A program made the position numbers and the translations under genes. Positions 827 through 35,834 of a stretch of 36,656 nt of DNA are shown here, in pieces. How positions within the stretch are numbered: position 1 is the first letter of the stretch; each line of letters opens with the position of its first letter. The DNA comes from Bacillota bacterium (GTDB lineage Bacteria > Bacillota > Clostridia > Lachnospirales > Lachnospiraceae), in assembly GCA_029226935.1 (NCBI GenBank), contig JAQXYZ010000058.1:1-36656 (forward strand), read 5' to 3'. The notes under the pieces are model-generated. The model ran no database searches. It was not told where the DNA came from and saw only the letters and a program-made list of their open reading frames with translations.

Positions 827-858
827 AAAAACCTCCGGCATAATTACCGGAGGTTTTT
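827..858 (-). terminator. Intrinsic terminator after the glycyl radical domain gene
   Basis: A 12-bp perfect inverted repeat (aaaaacctccgg at 827-838, ccggaggttttt at 847-858) with an 8-base loop. Read on the minus strand the stem runs directly into a T-rich tract, so it should stop or attenuate transcription between the glycyl radical domain gene and pflA. Confidence 0.85.
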
Positions 859-873
859 GCCTTATGCATCTGA

Positions 874-1116
874 TTAGATGGATTCGTGGAATGTACGGGA
901 AATAACGTCAGCCTGCTGCTCGGGAGTTAATTTAATGAAATTAACTGCATATCCGGAAACACGGATTGTAAGCTGAGGATAATTCTCGGGATGCTTCTGT
1001 GCATCTAATAATGTATCTCTGTTTAATACGTTTACATTAAGATGATGTCCGCCTTTGGTTGCGTAACCATCTAATAATGATACTAAGTTATCTACCTGTG
1101 CTGAACTAGCTGCCAT
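874..1116 (-). CDS. Free-standing glycyl radical domain of pyruvate formate-lyase
   Basis: An 80-residue protein that corresponds to the C-terminal domain of a normal pyruvate formate-lyase. It contains [13 protein letters not shown] (residues 22-34), [14 protein letters not shown] (47-60), with Gly55 in the place of the radical glycine, and the usual C-terminal ending DVISRTF. The neighbouring large subunit lacks exactly this domain, so the two would have to assemble into one active enzyme. It has its own strong ribosome-binding site (AGGAGG, 9 bases before the ATG) and starts 22 bases after the small protein gene. It resembles the spare-part protein GrcA/YfiD, which rescues oxygen-cut pyruvate formate-lyase, but here there is no intact domain on the main enzyme, so it should be essential rather than a spare. 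Domain identity is firm; the two-component mode of action is inferred. Confidence 0.93.
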
Positions 1117-1138
1117 GGTAAGTTACCTCCTTATAAAA

Positions 1139-1339
1139 TTAATGAAAATCGTCTAAACCGTCTTCCAAGGTAGGTACGCTGCATGCCAGAGGGGTTCTGG
1201 AGCAATCCGTACATCCCATGGTTTGAACGCTTTTTGACTTTTCTTCTTCATTGGTATCCACATTTACGTGACCGACACCCATTGCCATGCCGGAATCCAG
1301 CATTTTTACAAGATCGTCAATCATTTTCTTTTCGTCCAT
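1139..1339 (-). CDS. Small Cys-containing protein between the two halves of split pyruvate formate-lyase
   Basis: A 66-residue protein I do not recognise. Its first half (IDDLVKMLDSGMAMGVGHVNV) can be aligned without gaps to the start of the neighbouring glycyl radical domain ([21 protein letters not shown]), with about 10 identical positions of 23 by eye. It then diverges into a tail with three cysteines (GCTDCSRTPLACSVP) and an acidic end, and it has no RVSGY motif, so it cannot carry a glycyl radical. A strong AGGAGG ribosome-binding site lies 9 bases before the ATG, 35 bases after the large subunit ends. Possible roles are a docking or placeholder partner, an assembly factor or a redox-sensitive regulator of the split enzyme; all are inference. 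Confidence 0.85.
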   Translation of the reverse strand: MDEKKMIDDLVKMLDSGMAMGVGHVNVDTNEEEKSKSVQTMGCTDCSRTPLACSVPTLEDGLDDFH

Positions 1340-1374
1340 TGCATAGTACCTCCTGAAATAGGGTTATTAATCAA

Positions 1375-3414
1375 TTACTTATTTAAATCAACTTCGATGT
1401 CACCAGCAAATACCTGATCTTCTTTACCAAGTGCTCCGGGGATGATGGTGAAGGTATTGGAGATACCATCCTGTGCATCATTGAAAGGAAGCTTGGATAC
1501 GGAGGATAAGGATGCTACTGCACCGTGAGTATCACGTCCGTGCATCGGGTTAGCACCGGGAGCGAAAGGCTGACCTTTCTTACGTCCGTCAGGTGTGTTA
1601 CCTGTTGCCTTACCATAAGTTACGTTAGAGGTAATGGTAAGGATAGATGTTGTAGGAATACCGTTTCTGTAAGTATGATGTCTTCTGATAGCAGTCATGA
1701 ACTTGTGAACAACTTCCTGAGCGATGCTGTCTACGCGGTCATCGTCATTACCATACTTAGGGAAGTCACCAGTTGTCTTGAAGTCAACGATAATGCCGTC
1801 TTCATCTCTGATTACTTCTACCTTAGCATACTTGATTGCTGATAAGGAGTCAGCAACAATGGAAAGACCTGCAACACCTGTTGCGAAGTAACGCTTAACA
1901 TCTCTGTCATGAAGTGCCATTTCAGCTCTTTCATAGCAGTATTTGTCATGCATATAGTGAATGATGTTCAGAGTATTTACATATACATCTGCCTGCCATT
2001 CAAGCATGTCAATGAACTTGCTCATAACATCATCGTAGTCAAGAACATCACCTTCAACAGGACGATATTTAGGACCAACCTGTTTCTTGGTAACTTCATC
2101 AACACCACCGTTTAATGCATACAGTAAGCATTTTGCAACGTTTGCTCTTGCTCCGAAGAACTGCATTTCCTTACCGATAACCATGGAAGATACACAACAT
2201 GCAATACCGTAATCATCGCCGTGAGTCACTCTCATAAGGTCATCGTTCTCGTACTGGATGGAAGAGGTCTGGATAGACATCTTAGCACAGTATTTCTTCC
2301 AGTTTTCAGGAAGTCTTGTGGACCAGAGAACTGTTAAGTTGGGTTCAGGGCTGGGTCCTAAGTTGGTTAATGTATGCAGGTAACGGAAGCTCATCTTTGT
2401 TACCATAGGACGTCCGTCAACACCAACACCACCAAGAGATTCTGTTACCCATACAGGATCGCCAGCGAAGATCTGGTTGTATTCAGGTGTACGAGCGAAT
2501 TTTACGCAACGCAGCTTCATGATGAAGTGGTCTACGAATTCCTGAATTTCTTCTTCGGTAAATGTACCGTTCTTTAAGTCTCTTTCTGCATAAATATCAA
2601 GGAAGGTGGAAGTACGTCCAAGAGACATAGCTGCACCGTTCTGCTCCTTAACGGAACATAAGTATCCGAAATATGTCCACTGAATAGCTTCTTTTACGTT
2701 AGCAGCGGGTTTGGAAATATCGCATCCGTAGGAAGCTGCCATTTCCTTCATCATCTTAAGAGCGACCATCTGCTCAGAGAGTTCTTCGCGAAGACGGATA
2801 ACGTCATCTGTCATAACACGTCCGGTTGAGTCCTTCTGTGCCTGCTTGTCTTCGATCAGTCTGTCGATACCGTACAGAGCAACACGTCGGTAGTCGCCGA
2901 TGATACGTCCACGTCCGTAAGCATCCGGAAGACCTGTGATGATATGTGCGGAACGGCAAGCTCTCATTTCCTGGTTGTATGCGTCGAAGCATCCAGCGTT
3001 ATGAGTTTTTCTGTGTGTTGAGAAGAACTCGCTGATTTCGGGATCTACTTCATAACCGTTGTCAGCACAAGCTTTTTCTGCCATTCTGATACCGCCGTAA
3101 GGCTGAAGAGAACGCTTGAAAGGCTTGTCAGTCTGGAAACCAACGATCTTTTCCTTAGTCTTGTCTAAGTAGCCGGGAGCGTGTGAAGTAATAGTGGATA
3201 CAACCTTGGTATCCATATCGAGAACACCGCCTGCTTCTCTTTCTTTCTTCTGCAGATCCAGTACCATCTGCCATAAGTCTTTTGTGTCCTGTGTAGCACC
3301 AGCTAAGAAGGATTCGTCACCATCATAAGGATGATAGTTTCTCTGGATGAAGTCACGTACATTGACTTCTTTGTCCCACTTGCCGCCTACAAAATCGTTC
3401 CATTCTGGTCTCAT
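1375..3414 (-). CDS. pflB: Pyruvate formate-lyase large subunit, lacking the glycyl radical domain
   Basis: This encodes the catalytic body of formate C-acetyltransferase, which converts pyruvate and CoA to acetyl-CoA and formate. At 679 residues it is shorter than the usual 740-760. Residues 404-408 read IACCV, with the catalytic pair Cys406-Cys407, and the [20 protein letters not shown] region is intact. The protein stops at [23 protein letters not shown], where standard enzymes continue into the glycyl radical domain; that domain is encoded as a separate gene at 874-1116. The break is a clean stop followed by two genes with good ribosome-binding sites, not a one-base frameshift. AGGAGG lies before the ATG. 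It probably starts the pfl transcript from a promoter at 3486-3515. Confidence 0.95.
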
Positions 3415-3456
3415 TTTGTGTAAGCCTCCTAATTTAAATTTGTTTGATTTATTTGT

Positions 3457-3485: not shown

Positions 3486-3515
3486 ATTATATGTTAGAAA
3501 GTTGCTGACAGTCAA
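3486..3515 (-). promoter_or_regulatory. Promoter of the pyruvate formate-lyase genes
   Basis: On the minus strand TTGACT (3515-3510) and TATAAT (3491-3486) are separated by 18 bases, a near-consensus housekeeping promoter. It lies about 70 bases upstream of the pfl start codon and downstream of the sensor gene, so the pfl genes can be transcribed apart from the sensor. Confidence 0.8.
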
Positions 3516-3549: not shown

Positions 3550-5469
3550 CTATATCCGGTTGGTTTTTTCAATCATGGATGTAATCGTCTCAATGATGTC
3601 GCCCACCTGCAAAACAGAGTCCTGAATGTTCTCGCTTCGGGCGGAATTTTCGCGTATATCGGTAATTGCCTGATTAACTACACTTGTCAAAGCATCGATG
3701 CTTTCTGTAAAGCCGTTTACGGTGTCATTAATTTCGCTGATGGACTGATTGATGGAAGCATCATTTTCCTGGGCATTTGCAACGGAGCTCTTGGATTCAT
3801 CGGAAAGGTTACGGATGTTGGATGCAACCACTGCGAAACCTCGTCCGGCTTCACCGGCTCTGGCTGCTTCGATACTTGCATTCAGGGAAAGGAGGTTGAT
3901 GTTCTGGGCAATTTTTTCTACATTCTTTGACATTTCCCTGTAATTATCCACATTGACATTGATGTCCTTCATGGCTGCCAGAATCGCGGTATTCAATTCC
4001 GTCAGACTGGACAGATAAGTAACCACCTTTCCCATCTCATCACTGTTTCGTCTGCCTGCCTCTCCGATGCTGGTGGCTTCGGACTGAACCTCAACGACAC
4101 GCTGCTTCAGGTCTGCAACTATCTTCTGAAGCTCCTGAGTAATTTCATGAACCTGCTCATGGGATCGGGTAATCTGCTTACGTTCCTCCATAATCTGGTT
4201 CATCATATACTGGTGGCAGTTTTCAGGATAATTCAAACCTTGTGCAATGGCCTTTGCCATATCGGTGCAGCTGCTGAAACCACAGGCATGACAGTCAAAG
4301 TGGCGCTCGTTATTGGTCTTTTTACCAAGTGTATTAAACGCCTCTTCCAGCTGAGCATTGCTGACATCAATCTTTTTGGTGTTTTCGGGTGTATAGGTGC
4401 GGAAGAAATCCTCCAGTTTAAGTTCCTTATCAAATTTGGCAAACTGCTTGTCCTTGCCCCGCTTAGTAGTCTTCACACGCTCCTGATGAGTGTACTGTTC
4501 TACGCTATGCATGACAGAGTTCATCTGCATAAAGTTATAGTCCTGTCCGACTGCGGGTCCTTCATTACAGCCGAATTCACAATTCAGGACATCAAGAACC
4601 TGTGGCTTGTAAATGTCCTTTTCTGCTATGTACTTTTCAAGCTCGCGATAAACGTGCGACGGTCCTTCAATATTAAGGATTTCCAGATTGGGGTTATGGT
4701 ACAGGAGGTTGGTGGCAAGTCCACCGGGTCTTGGATAAATTGCACCTTCAAGACCTTGTTCCATGTCAAACTCAAATTCCGAATAGATTTTAACCTCCGG
4801 AAGGTTGATACCGTTTTCTGCAAAATACTGTTTCAAATGATCCATTGTCACATTGTACTGTACAAGACCGGTCTGGCGGAATTCATCGCCCTTGCCGATA
4901 CAGGGGGAGATTGCCGCAATTTTTCCGGTGTAGTTCATGTATTTGCGCAGATAAACAACCTCACAGAGCATAGGGCTGTGAATAGGGGACAAATTCGCAA
5001 GCAGCTGTGGTCTGTGCTTTAAAACGTAGTTGACAATGACAGCACAGGGCTGGGTCATGACTTTGGCATCGGGGTGCTGCTCCAAATACCGTAAATGTGC
5101 CCATGTGCAGATATCAGCGCCATATGCTACATCATAAACGCCTGTTACACCTGCATTGCGGAGCCATTGCAATGCGTGACGCCAGTTGCCGTCGAAGGCT
5201 ATTTTAATGGCGGGCGCTACAATAATGGCAATCTTTTCTCCCTTCTTTAGGTCTTCCAGAAACCGTTGCATATCATCCTCAAAGGTTCTTGCGTGATGGC
5301 TGCAGGCCTTGATGCAGGCACCGCATTTAATACATTTGCTCTCGTCAATTTCTATGACAAGCTTACCGTTATCGTTCTTGACAATGCGGTTGGCATCCCC
5401 TACGGGACAGGCTCGAACGCAAGAGTTACATCCAACACATTTTTCAAGTTCCACAACAATTTTGCTCAT
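3550..5469 (-). CDS. Soluble FeFe-hydrogenase-like sensor with methyl-accepting signalling domain
   Basis: A 639-residue cytoplasmic protein with no membrane segment. Order of parts: two 4Fe-4S motifs (C11, C14, C17, C21 and C46, C49, C52, C56); a hydrogenase large-subunit-like domain, about residues 75-370, with variant H-cluster motifs [21 protein letters not shown] and [10 protein letters not shown]; a Cys motif CHACGFSSC with a later NYPENC (about 390-420); then coiled coil and a methyl-accepting chemotaxis core with the hairpin-tip-like [22 protein letters not shown]. The single-Cys first motif is unlike catalytic hydrogenases (TSCCP) and like the sensory groups, so I infer a hydrogen or redox sensor feeding a signalling partner. 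The start is set by GGAGG just before MSKIVV; a further upstream ATG overlaps that site. It lies directly upstream of pfl. Confidence 0.88.
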
Positions 5470-5524
5470 ATATCCCTCCAATTAGTATATTTTGGAAGCC
5501 ATCATATTGTCATAATCAACAAAT

Positions 5525-5545: not shown

Positions 5546-5747
5546 TTATCATTAAAATTGACAAAAACCAAGGCTATTTACATTTTTTGGCTTTTTTGTT
5601 GAAAAAAGTATTTGCGTATCAATATGGAGCAAATTGGGAAATCGGGGTTTAGGCTTGCCAGAAAGTGGGCAAAGTATTATACTATAAAAGCCGCAGATTT
5701 TAAGAGGTCTGTTTATGAGCGCATACAATAAAAGGAGGTTACCAGAT

Positions 5748-5939
5748 ATGGCACAGATTACCAAAGAAATGACAATCGGTGAAATTTTAAGAGCGAATCC
5801 CAATGTTGCACCTATCCTTATGGAAGCAGGGATGCACTGTCTCGGATGCCCTTCCGCACAGGCAGAAAGCCTTGAAGAAGCAGCAATGGTTCATGGAATG
5901 GATATAAATGATTTGATGGCTAAGATTGCAGCTTTATAA
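5748..5939 (+). CDS. DUF1858 small redox-type protein
   Basis: A 63-residue protein with the DUF1858 pattern: an [15 protein letters not shown] start, [17 protein letters not shown] with a CxxC pair (Cys31, Cys34), and an ending of [13 protein letters not shown]. Members of this family are associated with hybrid-cluster and redox proteins, and a disulfide or metal role for the CxxC is commonly assumed but not shown here. The start is the ATG at 5748, 9 bases after AAGGAGG; an in-frame ATG at 5715 lacks such a site. It is followed by a shared terminator and is not clearly part of an operon. Confidence 0.88.
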
Positions 5940-23475: not shown

Positions 23476-24633
23476 GTGGAAGAATTAAGAGAAGCGCTAT
23501 CAGATTTTCTTTCGGATAGATTATATCAGATCATTATAAGCAATCCCCGAAGCAAAGAAGGAGCATTTAAAGTAAAGATACGTCCTGTAATGGTAAGGGA
23601 GAGCATCTGCTTTCAGGAAACCATCTGGAAAGGAACTCAGGTATTTCATGAAAATTATGGAAAGAATGAAATGCTTGATAAGCTTCTTTTGCATATGGAA
23701 TGTGATTTTAAGCAGATGGAGGCAGAAAGCATGGACGGACGGCTCCATGTGCTTGTCAGCAAAAAGGGGAAAATAACCATCAAACGGCAAAGAAATGCAC
23801 AGAATACGCCACAGGAAAGACCTGACATGTCCCACAACCGTGCCAAGAGATATATCCTGAAGGAGGGTGTGGTCATTCCGTTTCTGGTGGATTTAGGAGT
23901 ACAGACCCGTGAGGGGAAGATTGTGCATTCCAGATATGACAAATTTAAGCAGATTAACCGTTATCTGGAATTTGTTGAAGATATTCTGCCCACACTGAAT
24001 AAAGGCGGGACAGTTCATATTATCGACTTTGGATGTGGAAAATCTTATCTTACGTTTGCATTATATTATTATCTGCATGAGCTTAAGGGGATGGATGTGC
24101 AGATTACAGGATTGGACTTAAAAACTGATGTTATAGATCACTGCAATTGTCTGGCAGAAAAATATGGATATGACAAACTGCATTTTGTGAAAGGTGATAT
24201 CAGTACCTTCGAGGGTGCAGAAAAGGTAGACATGGTGGTAACCCTTCATGCCTGTGACACGGCGACGGATTATGCAATTAAGAAAGCGGTGGAATGGAAT
24301 GCCAAAGTCATTTTTACAGTCCCCTGCTGCCAGCATGAAGTAAACGGACAGATAGAAAACGAACTGCTTTCCCCTGTCTTAAAATATGGACTCTTGAAGG
24401 AAAGAATGGCAGCGCTTATCACGGATGGCATTCGGGCTAATTTGCTGGAAGAGTGTGGATATGACACTCAGGTGCTCGAATTTATTGATATGGAACATAC
24501 TCCTAAGAATATACTAATCAGAGCCGTTAAGCGCGATGAGGAGGAAAAACGTCAGGAGGGAAAGAGAATGCTTGAGCGTATGACTGAGGAATTGGGTGTA
24601 GAAACTACACTGCAGAGGCTTTTGAAGAGATGA
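23476..24633 (+). CDS. SAM-dependent methyltransferase (Methyltransf_32 type)
   Basis: A class I methyltransferase of about 385 residues. The SAM-binding motif is VHIIDFGCGKSYLTFALYYYL, followed by ITGLDLK, VTLHACDTATDYAI and VIFTVPCCQHE, a pattern of the Methyltransf_32 family. The N-terminal third is unassigned. Substrate is unknown; RNA is a reasonable guess. I prefer the GTG at 23476, 9 bases after GAGGAA; an ATG at 23431 has no ribosome-binding site. The stop codon overlaps the next start (ATGA), so the two genes are probably translated together. Confidence 0.8.
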   Translation: MEELREALSDFLSDRLYQIIISNPRSKEGAFKVKIRPVMVRESICFQETIWKGTQVFHENYGKNEMLDKLLLHMECDFKQMEAESMDGRLHVLVSKKGKITIKRQRNAQNTPQERPDMSHNRAKRYILKEGVVIPFLVDLGVQTREGKIVHSRYDKFKQINRYLEFVEDILPTLNKGGTVHIIDFGCGKSYLTFALYYYLHELKGMDVQITGLDLKTDVIDHCNCLAEKYGYDKLHFVKGDISTFEGAEKVDMVVTLHACDTATDYAIKKAVEWNAKVIFTVPCCQHEVNGQIENELLSPVLKYGLLKERMAALITDGIRANLLEECGYDTQVLEFIDMEHTPKNILIRAVKRDEEEKRQEGKRMLERMTEELGVETTLQRLLKR

Positions 24634-27164
24634 AAAGAACGATTATTAAGGCAAGCATCGTTGTATGCGTTTTTTTTGCAACGCTGTTTATTGTCAGTAC
24701 AGTTATGAATAAAGACAATGCTGATATGACTACCGAGATGAGTAAAGCCAGCTATCCGGTCATCTGGTTTGACTATGAAGGCTTCCGCATTAATGAAATG
24801 CATGGATATTCCGATGTCATGGAAGTCAATCAGATGCGTGAGGGAATTACTCCTCTTTCTTCCGGCAGAAAGGTTCATCTTGAGATTCAGCCTTATGGAA
24901 GAGGGATTAAACGGATTACTTACGAAGTGAGGAGCTTAAGCGGCAATCGGCTGATTGAAAGTACGCAGCTACAGGACTTTGAGGAGAATGAAAATGAAAT
25001 TTCCGTGTCTTTTGCCCTGAAGGATTTGATTGAGACTAATCAGGAATACATGCTGGTAATCATTCTGACGCTGGATAATGGAAGCGATGTCAGATATTAC
25101 TCCAGAGTCATCAGCGCAGAGGACTATTTTGTAGGTGATAAGCTGGATTATGTATGTGATTTTTCAGACAGAACCTTTGATAAGGAAGCAGCAAAGGAAC
25201 TGACCAAGTATCTGGAAACCAACGCAGAAGGGGATAATACCACTTACGGCAAGGTAAACATCCACAGCAGTTTTAACCAGGTAACTTGGGGAAATTTGAA
25301 TGTCAAAAGGGAAACAATGCCCAATATTACGATCAGGGAAATGGGAACCCAGACAGGCAGCATTCTCTTAGACTATTATGTTTCTACTGCTGATGGAAGT
25401 GAAAAGAATTATTACAGAGTTAAAGAATTTTTCAGAGTGCGTTATACTGCGGACAGAATTTATCTCTTAGATTACGAGAGAACCATGAACCAAATGTTTG
25501 ACGCAACGGCAGATGTGTATGCGAACAACAAGATCATGCTTGGAATTACCGGAGAGGATGTAACACTTGAGGAAAGTGATGGAGGAAATGTGCTGGCATT
25601 TATTGTCGGAAACCGCCTTTACAGTTATAACGTGGTGGACAATAAAATGGCACGATTGTTTGGCTTCTATAATAAAGGCAATCAGGACGAGAGAACGCTA
25701 TATGACAGTCACCGGATCAAGATTCTGAACATGGACGAGGGCGGGAATATTACCTTTCTGGTGTATGGCTACATGAATAGAGGCCGCCATGAGGGAGAGG
25801 TTGGTGTCTCTGTATACTATTATGACAGTGGGGTAAATACCGTAGAAGAGATGGTTTATATTTCCAGCACCAAATCCCAGGCAATTTTGATGGAGGAGGT
25901 GGAGCAGCTGTCCTACCTTAATAAGAAGGGAATGCTCTACTTAAAGTGGGAGAATCAGATTTATGAAATCAATGTTGTAGAGAGAAGCTGTGAGCCAGTG
26001 GTATCTAATCTGGCTGAAGGAAGTTATAAGGTTTCAGACAGTAACAAGATGGCAGTTTGGCAGAAGGATGGAAGCCTTTACCATGGAAAAGAGCTTGTAT
26101 TGATGAATCTGACCACCGGAAATCAGACCAGCATCAGAGCAGGAAGCGGCGAGGTCATTGCACCAATCGGTTTTATGGGAGAAGATCTGATTTATGGAAT
26201 TGCCAGGGAAAGCGACATTGTGGTGGACTCTGTGGGAAACACAATTTTTCCCATGTATTGTGTGAAAATTGAGAATGAGGGGCAAGGTGTACTCATGTCC
26301 TATCAGCAGGACAATGTTTATGTTACGGGCGGTGAGGTCAGCGGCAATCAGATTATTCTTTCCCGAATGAAAAAGGAAGAAGACGGATCTTATGTAGAAA
26401 TCAAAAATGATCAGATCATGAATGCAGAAACAGAACCCGCAAGCCGCAATACAATCGAGGTGGCAGTTACTGAAAACTATGAAAAATTGACGCAGATAGC
26501 GCTGAAAGGGGATATTGATACGGCTGCCATGAAGCATCTTACGCCCAAAGAAGTACTCTTTGAAGGTGGAAGAAGTATCGGACTTATTTCTTCTGATGAG
26601 GAGATAGAAAGATATTATGTGTACGGAAAGAACGGCATTGAAGGAATTTATACAGATGCGGCGAGAGCAGTCAGTCTGGCGGACAGCATTTCGGGAGTCG
26701 TTCTGGGAGAAGATGGTTATTATATCTGGCAGAAGGGAAACCGAAGCCTGAAAAACCAGATTATGGCGATACAGGGCGAGTCGGCAACAGAGGAAAAGAA
26801 CTCTCTTGCAGTCTGCCTGGATGTCATGCTGGGCTATGAAGGGGTTGTAAGAAACTCGGAATATATGCTGGAACAGGGGAACTCCGCACTTTCAATTTTA
26901 AAGGAAAGTCTTACGGATAGACGGGTGCTTGACCTTAGCGGATGCTCGCTGGATGCAATGCTTTATTATGTGAACAAGGATATTCCCGTTTTGGTTACAA
27001 TGAAAGATGGAACAGCAGTGCTCCTGATTGGATTCAATGAAAAAAATACAGTCGTTATGAATCCGGAAAGCGGTACAGTCTACAAAGTTGGTATGAATGA
27101 TTCCAGAGAATGGTTTGAAGAAAATGGAAATTGTTTTATTACCTATGTAAGAAATATGGAATAG
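24630..27164 (+). CDS. Large membrane-anchored extracellular protein with degenerate C39-like domain
   Basis: An 844-residue protein with one N-terminal hydrophobic helix (about residues 6-26), the rest predicted outside the cell. The middle (about 170-680) is strand-rich with repeated patterns such as GNVLAFIVGNRLYSYN and GMLYLKWENQIYEIN, which suggest a beta-propeller-like fold. The last 120 residues resemble a C39-like cysteine peptidase: a Cys in AVCLDVMLGYEG (Cys729) and VLLIGFNEKNTVVMNPESG, but the position of the usual catalytic His (GH before VVVxGY) is GTA (Ala796). It is therefore probably not an active peptidase. The function is unknown; a wall-associated binding or sensing role is a guess. 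Its start overlaps the methyltransferase stop. Confidence 0.8.
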   Translation: MKRTIIKASIVVCVFFATLFIVSTVMNKDNADMTTEMSKASYPVIWFDYEGFRINEMHGYSDVMEVNQMREGITPLSSGRKVHLEIQPYGRGIKRITYEVRSLSGNRLIESTQLQDFEENENEISVSFALKDLIETNQEYMLVIILTLDNGSDVRYYSRVISAEDYFVGDKLDYVCDFSDRTFDKEAAKELTKYLETNAEGDNTTYGKVNIHSSFNQVTWGNLNVKRETMPNITIREMGTQTGSILLDYYVSTADGSEKNYYRVKEFFRVRYTADRIYLLDYERTMNQMFDATADVYANNKIMLGITGEDVTLEESDGGNVLAFIVGNRLYSYNVVDNKMARLFGFYNKGNQDERTLYDSHRIKILNMDEGGNITFLVYGYMNRGRHEGEVGVSVYYYDSGVNTVEEMVYISSTKSQAILMEEVEQLSYLNKKGMLYLKWENQIYEINVVERSCEPVVSNLAEGSYKVSDSNKMAVWQKDGSLYHGKELVLMNLTTGNQTSIRAGSGEVIAPIGFMGEDLIYGIARESDIVVDSVGNTIFPMYCVKIENEGQGVLMSYQQDNVYVTGGEVSGNQIILSRMKKEEDGSYVEIKNDQIMNAETEPASRNTIEVAVTENYEKLTQIALKGDIDTAAMKHLTPKEVLFEGGRSIGLISSDEEIERYYVYGKNGIEGIYTDAARAVSLADSISGVVLGEDGYYIWQKGNRSLKNQIMAIQGESATEEKNSLAVCLDVMLGYEGVVRNSEYMLEQGNSALSILKESLTDRRVLDLSGCSLDAMLYYVNKDIPVLVTMKDGTAVLLIGFNEKNTVVMNPESGTVYKVGMNDSREWFEENGNCFITYVRNME

Positions 27165-34692: not shown

Positions 34693-34896
34693 ATGAGTAC
34701 AATGTTTATTGGAGTAACTGAAGTGGCTGAGATTTTAGGAGTCTCAGAGTCTTACGCATATAAGCTGATTCAGAAAATGAATAAGCAGATGCGTGAAGAA
34801 GGTTATAAAGGTCCGATTATTCGTGGCAGAGTGGATAGAACATATTTCTATCAGCAGTTTTACGGCACAAGAGATTATGAAAGGAGAGATGTATAA
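34693..34896 (+). CDS. Excisionase-like helix-turn-helix protein
   Basis: A 67-residue protein with a winged-helix pattern of excisionases: FIGVTEVAEILGVSESYAYKLIQKMNKQ followed by a basic strand and YFYQQFYG. It is commonly found just before the integrase of Firmicute integrative elements, as here. The ATG at 34693 follows GGGAGGTG. The stop overlaps the integrase start (TAATG), so they are translated together. Confidence 0.85.
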   Translation: MSTMFIGVTEVAEILGVSESYAYKLIQKMNKQMREEGYKGPIIRGRVDRTYFYQQFYGTRDYERRDV

Positions 34897-35834
34897 TGCC
34901 GATTTACAAGGACAAGAAAAATGGTACATGGTATGTGATGGTTCGTTATAAAGATTGGATCGGAGCAAATAAACAGAAGTGCCAAAGAGGATTTGAAACA
35001 AAGCGTGAGGCACAGAAATGGGAGTGTCAGTTCAAACTTCAAAAGAAAGCGGATATAGATATGACACTTGCCGCATTTTGCGAGTTGTATGAGATGGATA
35101 TGAAACCGAAGCTCAAATTAAATACATGGCTTACAAAAGAACACATTATTAAGACAAAAATAGTTCCCTATTTGGGGAATCGAAAGATTTCGGAGATTAC
35201 TGCGAAGGATATTATAGACTGGCAGAATACAATGAGAGCACTTAAGACAAGTAATGGAAAAGCAATGTCACCAACTTACTTGAAAACAATACATGCGCAG
35301 TTAAGTTCCATATTTAATCATGCCATCCGCTATTATGACTTAAGCCATAATCCTGCGAAGAAAGCCGGCACGATGGGAGAGGAAGAAGGCAAGGAGATGC
35401 TCTTCTGGACAAAGGAAGAATATATGAAATTTGCCGAAGAGATGATGGATAAACCACTTTCCTACTATGCATTTGAAATGCTGTACTGGTGTGGAATACG
35501 AGAGGGCGAGCTATTGGCCTTGACGCCTGAAGATTTTGATTTTTCAGCAATGACGGTTCGTATCAATAAATCTTATCAGAGGTTAAACCGGAGGGATGTA
35601 ATAACAACACCCAAAACTAAGAAAAGTAATCGTATTGTGAAAATGCCGGAGTTTTTGGTTGAGGAAATGCAGGAATATATGAAGATGTATTACAGACTAA
35701 CACCTAAGGACAGAATTTTTCCGGTGACGAAGAGTTATCTAAAACATGAAATGATTAGAGGATGCAAAGCTTCCGGTGTGAAACAGATAAGGATTCATGA
35801 TTTAAGGCATTCTCATCTTCCAAATGACGATTAA
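34896..35834 (+). pseudogene. int: Tyrosine integrase, truncated at the 3' end
   Basis: 312 residues of a site-specific recombinase of the Tn916-like/phage integrase family. An AP2-like arm-binding region (YKDKKNGTWYVMVRYKDW, about 4-21), a SAM-like core-binding domain (about 60-165) and the first part of the catalytic domain are present, with the first Arg in GIREGELLAL and the HxxR motif in RIHDLRHSH. The sequence then breaks to LPNDD and stops; the following His/Trp and the catalytic Tyr (about 50-60 residues) are missing, and no other frame restores them. It should be inactive. The junction near 35815 suggests a deletion that joined it to later genes. Confidence 0.82.

Follow-up and report, generated by a model that had tools for sequence, protein, structure and literature searches.

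Pyruvate formate-lyase (PFL) of Escherichia coli, PflB (1h16), is a glycyl radical enzyme made of one chain, and the gene of its activating enzyme PflA lies next to its own gene. Other glycyl radical enzymes like 4-hydroxyphenylacetate decarboxylase and benzylsuccinate synthase have small subunits, some of which bind iron-sulphur clusters, and in these enzymes the catalytic subunit retains its own radical domain. Free-standing glycyl radical domains are found in GrcA/YfiD (6owr) and GrcA2. In PMC8683613 YfiD is described as completing PFL in trans and thereby repairing an intact enzyme cleaved by oxygen, and its disordered N-terminal half is used to bind the cleaved PFL. The present study deals with a PFL locus in a genome of a Lachnospiraceae bacterium (2.59 Mb, 161 contigs, 98.14% complete), lying on a contig of 36,656 nt (C58) that is called here the window. 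On the minus strand the locus encodes, in this order, a PFL body, a small middle protein, a separate glycyl radical subunit of 80 residues and PflA. Our data indicate that body and radical subunit very probably form a working PFL made of separate chains.

Relation of the locus to one-chain pyruvate formate-lyase

The body matches the PFL model TIGR01255 with 1105.6 bits (cut-off 994.2) over model positions 2-665 of 744, and PF02901 with 731.5 bits. In a search of solved structures it corresponds to residues 10-681 of 1h16; it ends at about residue 681 of PflB and then carries a short acidic tail without cysteine. The 80-residue protein scores 161.6 bits against NCBIfam NF038360 'GrcA3' (cut-off 158) and 83.4 bits against PF01228 (Gly_radical), and in the structure search it corresponds to residues 682-758 of 1cm5 and to residues 67-127 of 6owr (E 1.6e-25). 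Taken together, the two proteins align end to end with PflB of E. coli K-12, sharing 470 identical residues among 742 aligned; at the seam there are 17 inserted residues, and a gap of 5 residues comes directly behind. The alignment places the Cys406-Cys407 pair of the body on C418/C419 of PflB and Gly55 of the radical subunit on Gly734. The PflB residues R176, A272, W333 and R435 of the substrate site are conserved in the body. Judged from these alignments, a complete active site is spread over two chains.

An earlier note, made from the letters of the window, had described the three open reading frames (ORFs), the catalytic cysteine pair in the large protein and a separate RVSGY protein two genes on, and all of these were found again, the reading frames at the same places on the minus strand. 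It had also held that the body stops exactly where the radical domain begins. The break falls instead inside the Pfam Gly_radical model, of which positions 1-51 sit in the end of the body and positions 50-106 in the radical subunit.

The locus shares with PflB the family over its whole length, the cysteine pair, the radical glycine and the substrate-site residues that were checked, and here too the PflA gene is adjacent. A Cys-Cys barrel, a radical glycine loop within the system and a dedicated activating enzyme are all present. The difference is that PflB is one chain, as a TIGR01255 PFL is expected to be, whereas here the glycyl radical domain is encoded by a separate gene, with the break at about residue 681/682, and a third conserved small protein is present. 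By sequence and ancestry the system is thus predicted to be a PFL that departs from the others in the one-chain feature.

It was found that the body gives the single PF02901 match in its genome, and no full-length PFL was seen elsewhere in this 98.14% complete assembly, which is what the earlier note had required of a genuine two-chain enzyme. Gly_radical matches are limited to the end of the body, the 80-residue protein and a second free-standing copy on another contig (C12). Neither the single-chain pyruvate:ferredoxin oxidoreductase TIGR02176 nor a POR_N domain was found in the genome. Two E1_dh matches above the cut-off were considered as pyruvate dehydrogenase E1 and rejected, as they are the two-gene transketolase and DXS; no pyruvate dehydrogenase is therefore among the matches of this genome. 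Allowing for assembly gaps, the split PFL is the only predicted enzyme converting pyruvate to acetyl-CoA among the searched families. The transketolase of this genome is also encoded by two adjacent genes (L232:723-1577 and 1577-2518, contig C156).

Conservation and origin of the split

When genome contigs were scanned with the body, at least 589 relatives came up, of which the best 80 (81-97% identity) were kept. In 6 of these the sequence stops inside the body, leaving 74 readable loci. All 74 have a middle gene and a body that stops short of the radical domain, and 73 have a separate radical-domain gene; the sequence of the remaining locus, L012, breaks off 412 nt behind the body. The arrangement of the three genes, which the earlier note had proposed to look for in related genomes, is conserved except in L056, where the order is body, radical gene, middle gene. 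The relative reading frames of the split genes differ between loci, and four of the split loci (L015, L039, L062 and L069) come from records that are not labelled as metagenome-assembled genomes (MAGs). The mean ratio of nonsynonymous to synonymous polymorphism (pN/pS), taken over 72-73 loci, is 0.107 for the body, 0.133 for the radical subunit and 0.266 for the middle gene.

The family was sampled evenly with 299 genomes. TIGR01255 matches 254 of them and a profile of the middle protein matches 78, or 77 when G288 is dropped, whose weak profile match falls within its radical subunit. Of these 77 genomes, 73 have only split bodies or fragments (PFL matches with E up to 1e-60), three (G132, G265 and G284) have a full-length PFL as well, and one (G006, 67% complete) is without a PFL match. 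In a survey of 341 genomes of the class the middle-protein profile matches 10: five in the same family, four in three other families and one, G625, in which the weak match falls inside a full-length PFL. The four loci outside the family (L207, L208, L209 and L211) were read and are split systems; in L208 the profile match falls between the body and the radical gene. Among the best-scoring TIGR01255 matches listed for the class all are full length, though split bodies score lower and some may escape such a list. The split PFL is, as far as gene content can tell, widespread, occurring in many gut bacteria of Lachnospiraceae.

These surveys bear on two simpler accounts of the locus. The locus could be a single gene broken by an error of sequencing or assembly, or by recent decay, and the predominance of full-length PFLs among the class matches would speak for this. 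On the other hand the identical break occurs in all 74 readable loci, the records without a MAG label included, the parts have start sites of their own and a conserved gene lies in between. Since the reading frames are separate in 74 of 74 loci with varying relative frames, a sequencing error is excluded, in agreement with the earlier note, and the account as a whole has next to no probability. Programmed frameshifting or stop read-through was also tried as a candidate and was ruled out by the intervening gene and the varying frames. Alternatively, the 80-residue protein could be a spare part of the GrcA type serving an intact PFL, the truncated body being a decayed or secondary copy. The earlier note had named GrcA/YfiD as the nearest parallel, and as to kinship this holds, the protein being of the same family by its NF038360 score and its match to 6owr; moreover, the name of NF038360, 'autonomous glycyl radical cofactor GrcA3', implies a spare part, the second copies near genes of Crp/Fnr regulators and rubrerythrin resemble stress-response spares, and the three genomes with a full-length PFL would suit such a role. 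The parallel does not extend to the partner, which here is not an intact enzyme but a body that, unlike the partner of YfiD, never had a radical domain. The genome itself is without an intact PFL, nearly all middle-gene genomes have split bodies or fragments only (G006 having no PFL match), and purifying selection on the bodies is strong, the full active site being kept. Contrary to what the name GrcA3 implies, no kind of radical domain other than that of the 80-residue protein was found here to go with the only PFL. The 80-residue protein also lacks the about 60 disordered N-terminal residues of YfiD (PMC8683613), its match beginning at YfiD residue 67. Because no intact partner was found the system is not a GrcA repair system, and a spare-part role is very improbable. 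Thus with no intact PFL found, the split kept in 74 of 74 loci and split-only genomes making up 73 of 77, neither a frameshift nor a spare part accounts for the locus. It was also observed that the C-termini of three full-length PFLs (G252, G096 and G074) exceed the NF038360 cut-off.

The origin of the split was followed in trees on thinned sets of 98, 72 and 92 rows. In the 92-row tree, with E. coli PflB as the root, the 68 split rows are all contained in a single clade with a support of 98 in the Shimodaira-Hasegawa-like approximate likelihood ratio test (SH-aLRT); in the 98-row tree the support is 99. Seven full-length PFLs are nested inside this clade, on branches several of which have SH-aLRT values of 95 or more and some lower, for example 83, and parsimony counts three changes between full and split forms. 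One of the seven, L147:224-2521 (+), lies among split PFLs and has a linker rich in cysteine where body and radical domain meet, as though the parts of a split system had been rejoined. When the split rows were held as a clade of their own, the approximately unbiased (AU) test rejected this weakly (p 0.021 with 72 rows, 0.047 with 92 rows); when L147 was counted among the split rows the clade was not rejected (p 0.134). As the rejection is weak, re-fusion of the remaining group of six full-length rows is suggested. One split followed by at least one re-fusion would be the simplest reading, and several independent splits may also have occurred.

The middle protein and a proposed mechanism

The middle protein belongs to no named family, and its best matches are weak ones to the start of GrcA3, far under the cut-off. 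In an alignment of 30 it has 15 invariant columns, three cysteines among them. Over 28 columns its N-terminal part is similar to the beginning of the radical domain (hhalign, probability 66, E 5.6e-5) and corresponds to about residues 683-709 of E. coli PFL. It has no Gly_radical match and no radical glycine loop, the likeness stopping after about 28 residues. Its C-terminal part carries a cysteine motif, CxxCx6C..PT in this genome and C...C..P(T/N) in general, and it is the middle gene with this motif that is new here.

The motif was found in 97 of 100 middle proteins that adjoin a body, a set that was freed of duplicates of the window (L003 and L004) and still includes two identical body pairs (L042/L122 and L065/L118). 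The three without the full motif are L011, which has ambiguous bases, and L103 and L112, which stop early. None of the 100 adjoining bodies has a tail cysteine, and the motif is found in none of 23 full-length PFLs. The bodies without an adjacent middle gene number 39 (loci L125-L144 and L212-L230) and come from G002 and from 38 genomes that have a listed free-standing radical gene and no middle-gene match, G288 being counted as having none. In 36 of the 39 the body itself continues into a tail with at least two cysteines, in 28 cases in the C...C..P(T/N) setting. One further body, L144 of G002, has its middle gene elsewhere in the genome (L204), and L219 and L230 are considered below. Altogether three genomes encode a middle protein that is unlinked to the body and lies in other neighbourhoods: besides G002, the motif-less bodies L113 (G282) and L206 (G297) are paired with unlinked middle genes (L203 and L205). 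In L113 one cysteine is found close to the seam. A tree of 92 body cores offers 7 independent pairs on well-supported branches, and in all 7 the middle gene and the tail replace each other (p 0.016 in a two-sided sign test, and 0.016-0.031 depending on how the pairs are chosen); in this test L113, L144 and L206 were coded as having an unlinked middle gene and no tail, despite the one cysteine of L113. This pattern provides good evidence for the cysteine element, be it in cis or in trans, as a part of the split enzyme. The element, as middle protein or as body tail, looks like a third and nearly universal part of split PFLs, and the middle gene, which the earlier note had left aside, looks like a part of the system and not a bystander.

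The solved chains closest to the body are PDB 38la and 38lb, both named 'Formate acetyltransferase' (1089 and 1145 bits). 38lb continues into a DCAC tail like the tail-type bodies, whereas 38la stops at the split point and might be an artificial truncation; at E 1e-5 the radical domain matches neither of them. Since NCBI has named GrcA3 and these chains have been deposited in PDB, work on such proteins by others is probable. The open-licence literature of PubMed Central yielded no paper on a split PFL or on GrcA3, and a preprint or subscription paper may exist.

In the proposed enzyme the body would supply the barrel, the substrate site and Cys406/Cys407, and the radical subunit, docked at the C-terminal edge of the body, would carry on Gly55 the radical that PflA installs. 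From there the radical would be handed to Cys407, then to Cys406 and finally to pyruvate, in the manner of E. coli PFL. Since the residue that oxygen attacks belongs to a small chain of its own, a subunit cleaved by oxygen could be discarded and a fresh one take its place. The activity, the site of the radical and the exchange of subunits after damage are inferred. Such a two-chain PFL is supported as feasible, by analogy, by an observation in PMC8683613: E. coli PFL truncated at 695 is poorly activated together with YfiD and yet has wild-type activity once activated. The natural chain break lies about 14 residues before 695, and nature must have solved the problem of binding that the truncated enzyme has in that account. 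The middle protein or the tail is the obvious candidate for having done so.

How the cysteine element would act can only be guessed. The middle protein or the cysteine tail would most likely function at the docking edge, and its cysteine pair would serve as a latch that depends on redox state or metal. The middle protein could be a placeholder while no radical subunit is bound, an idea we hold tentatively. A second possibility, to which we give about the same modest weight, is that the middle protein or tail is a docking aid which recruits the radical subunit or PflA in place of the segment 696-733. According to PMC8683613 cleaved E. coli PFL requires residues 696-733 to bind YfiD; the split bodies are without this segment, and the N-terminal part of the middle protein overlaps its start. 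Against a docking aid stands the tail form, which retains the cysteine part and not the part that resembles the radical domain. The middle protein could finally be a mere evolutionary remnant of the radical domain with no function in the enzyme. Its start resembles that of the radical domain, two split genomes do without both middle gene and tail, and although the middle gene is by its polymorphism under purifying selection, this is weaker than for the radical subunit (pN/pS 0.27 vs 0.13). A remnant would hardly be expected to keep 15 invariant columns including three cysteines, to be retained when unlinked from the body and to be replaced time and again by a cysteine tail of the body, and we consider it improbable. 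Taken as a whole, a three-part enzyme could be envisaged, made of a body, an exchangeable 80-residue radical subunit and a placeholder at the docking edge, separate or as a tail, which by its cysteines would couple the loading of the subunit to oxygen or redox state. The split would have arisen once in the ancestor of a large group of Clostridia, and at least one lineage (L147) would have reversed it by re-fusion. This full scheme is put forward as a possibility of modest probability.

Several observations weigh against a two-chain PFL with a cysteine element. According to PMC8683613 the truncated E. coli body binds YfiD too weakly to measure and receives 32-fold less radical than the merely cleaved enzyme, and a break of the chain is therefore not automatically workable. 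As the genome is in 161 contigs, a gene could have been missed, and three of the 77 middle-gene genomes possess a full-length PFL as well. The likeness between the middle protein and the radical domain is limited to 28 columns of shallow profiles. The middle proteins of L103 and L112 end after the first CxxC, and 8 of the 36 cysteine tails are without the P(T/N) part. Two of the 39 bodies, L219 and L230 of the split genomes G130 and G288, have neither a middle gene nor tail cysteines, and because these genomes are without both forms the cysteine element is not absolutely required.

In glycyl radical enzymes oxygen destroys one residue of one chain, and here this residue would be on a cheap, separately made part, so that the fragile radical part could be swapped without remaking the enzyme. 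The split PFL offers a natural test of radical-domain exchange, of loading and of the role of the cysteine element, and could turn PFL into an enzyme that is easier to handle in biotechnology. A problem of annotation comes with it: the bodies pass the cut-off for formate C-acetyltransferase without a radical domain, and the radical subunit is labelled an autonomous cofactor.

Second radical-subunit genes, signals and neighbouring genes

At least 21 of the 77 middle-gene genomes have a second gene for the radical subunit, either far away or on a different contig. That of the genome studied here (L001:1441-1713, -, contig C12) lies beside a gene for a Crp/Fnr-type regulator. Of 20 second-copy loci that were read, 5 are near a Crp/Fnr-type regulator, this genome included, and 3 are within 1 kb of a rubrerythrin gene; the neighbours were picked by eye and the counts are without a background rate. 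Such neighbourhoods fit a resupply of radical subunits under oxygen stress. Seven second copies (L165, L167, L170, L173, L175, L180 and L181) adjoin apparent spoIIIAA/spoIIIAB genes, and in the two that were tested (L165 and L175) SpoIIIAA was confirmed by Pfam.

The features of the locus are collected in the table. The earlier note had given each chain its own ribosome-binding site, and a site of the AGGAGG type was indeed read before each of the three starts. The promoter-like site upstream of the body is to be seen against the fact that sites of its class are not commoner than in shuffled sequence (5 found, 6.6 expected). The hairpin behind the radical-subunit gene is likely a terminator: in the fold of 822-873 it has a z of -5.5 and was equalled in 0 of 200 shuffles, and it is absent from the output of a simple terminator scan.

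Table. Features of the split PFL locus in the window, and unlinked middle genes of other genomes
Feature	Position	Strand	Basis
PFL body, 679 aa, barrel with Cys406-Cys407	1375..3414	-	TIGR01255 and PF02901 matches
Middle protein, 66 aa	1139..1339	-	ORF; no named family
Glycyl radical subunit, 80 aa, RVSGY with Gly55	874..1116	-	NF038360 and PF01228 matches
PflA, PFL-activating radical-SAM enzyme; gene overruns contig end	3..743	-	TIGR02493, 298.2 bits (cut-off 231.75)
Ribosome-binding site of body, AGGAGG	3425..3430	-	direct sequence reading
Ribosome-binding site of middle gene, AGGAGG	1349..1354	-	direct sequence reading
Ribosome-binding site of radical-subunit gene, AAGGAGG	1126..1132	-	direct sequence reading
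Promoter-like site upstream of body, TTGACT-18-TATAAT	3486..3515	-	11/12 matches
Hairpin with U tail 3' of radical-subunit gene, before pflA	828..857	-	-21.6 kcal/mol
Unlinked middle genes	L203:1916-2125, L204:1629-1901, L205:1749-1967

Directly upstream of the split PFL (3550-5481, -) lies a gene for a 643-aa protein with 4Fe-4S motifs, an iron-only hydrogenase C-terminal domain and a signalling domain of methyl-accepting chemotaxis proteins, which is possibly a redox or H2 sensor. At 5715-5939 (+) lies a gene for a small DUF1858 protein, and a similar one is found near the split PFL of L056 (7390-7578). Farther along the window there is an ORF of 844 aa at 24630-27164 (+) with no Pfam match at 1e-5, and a phage-type integrase is encoded at 34896-35834 (+), close to the contig end.

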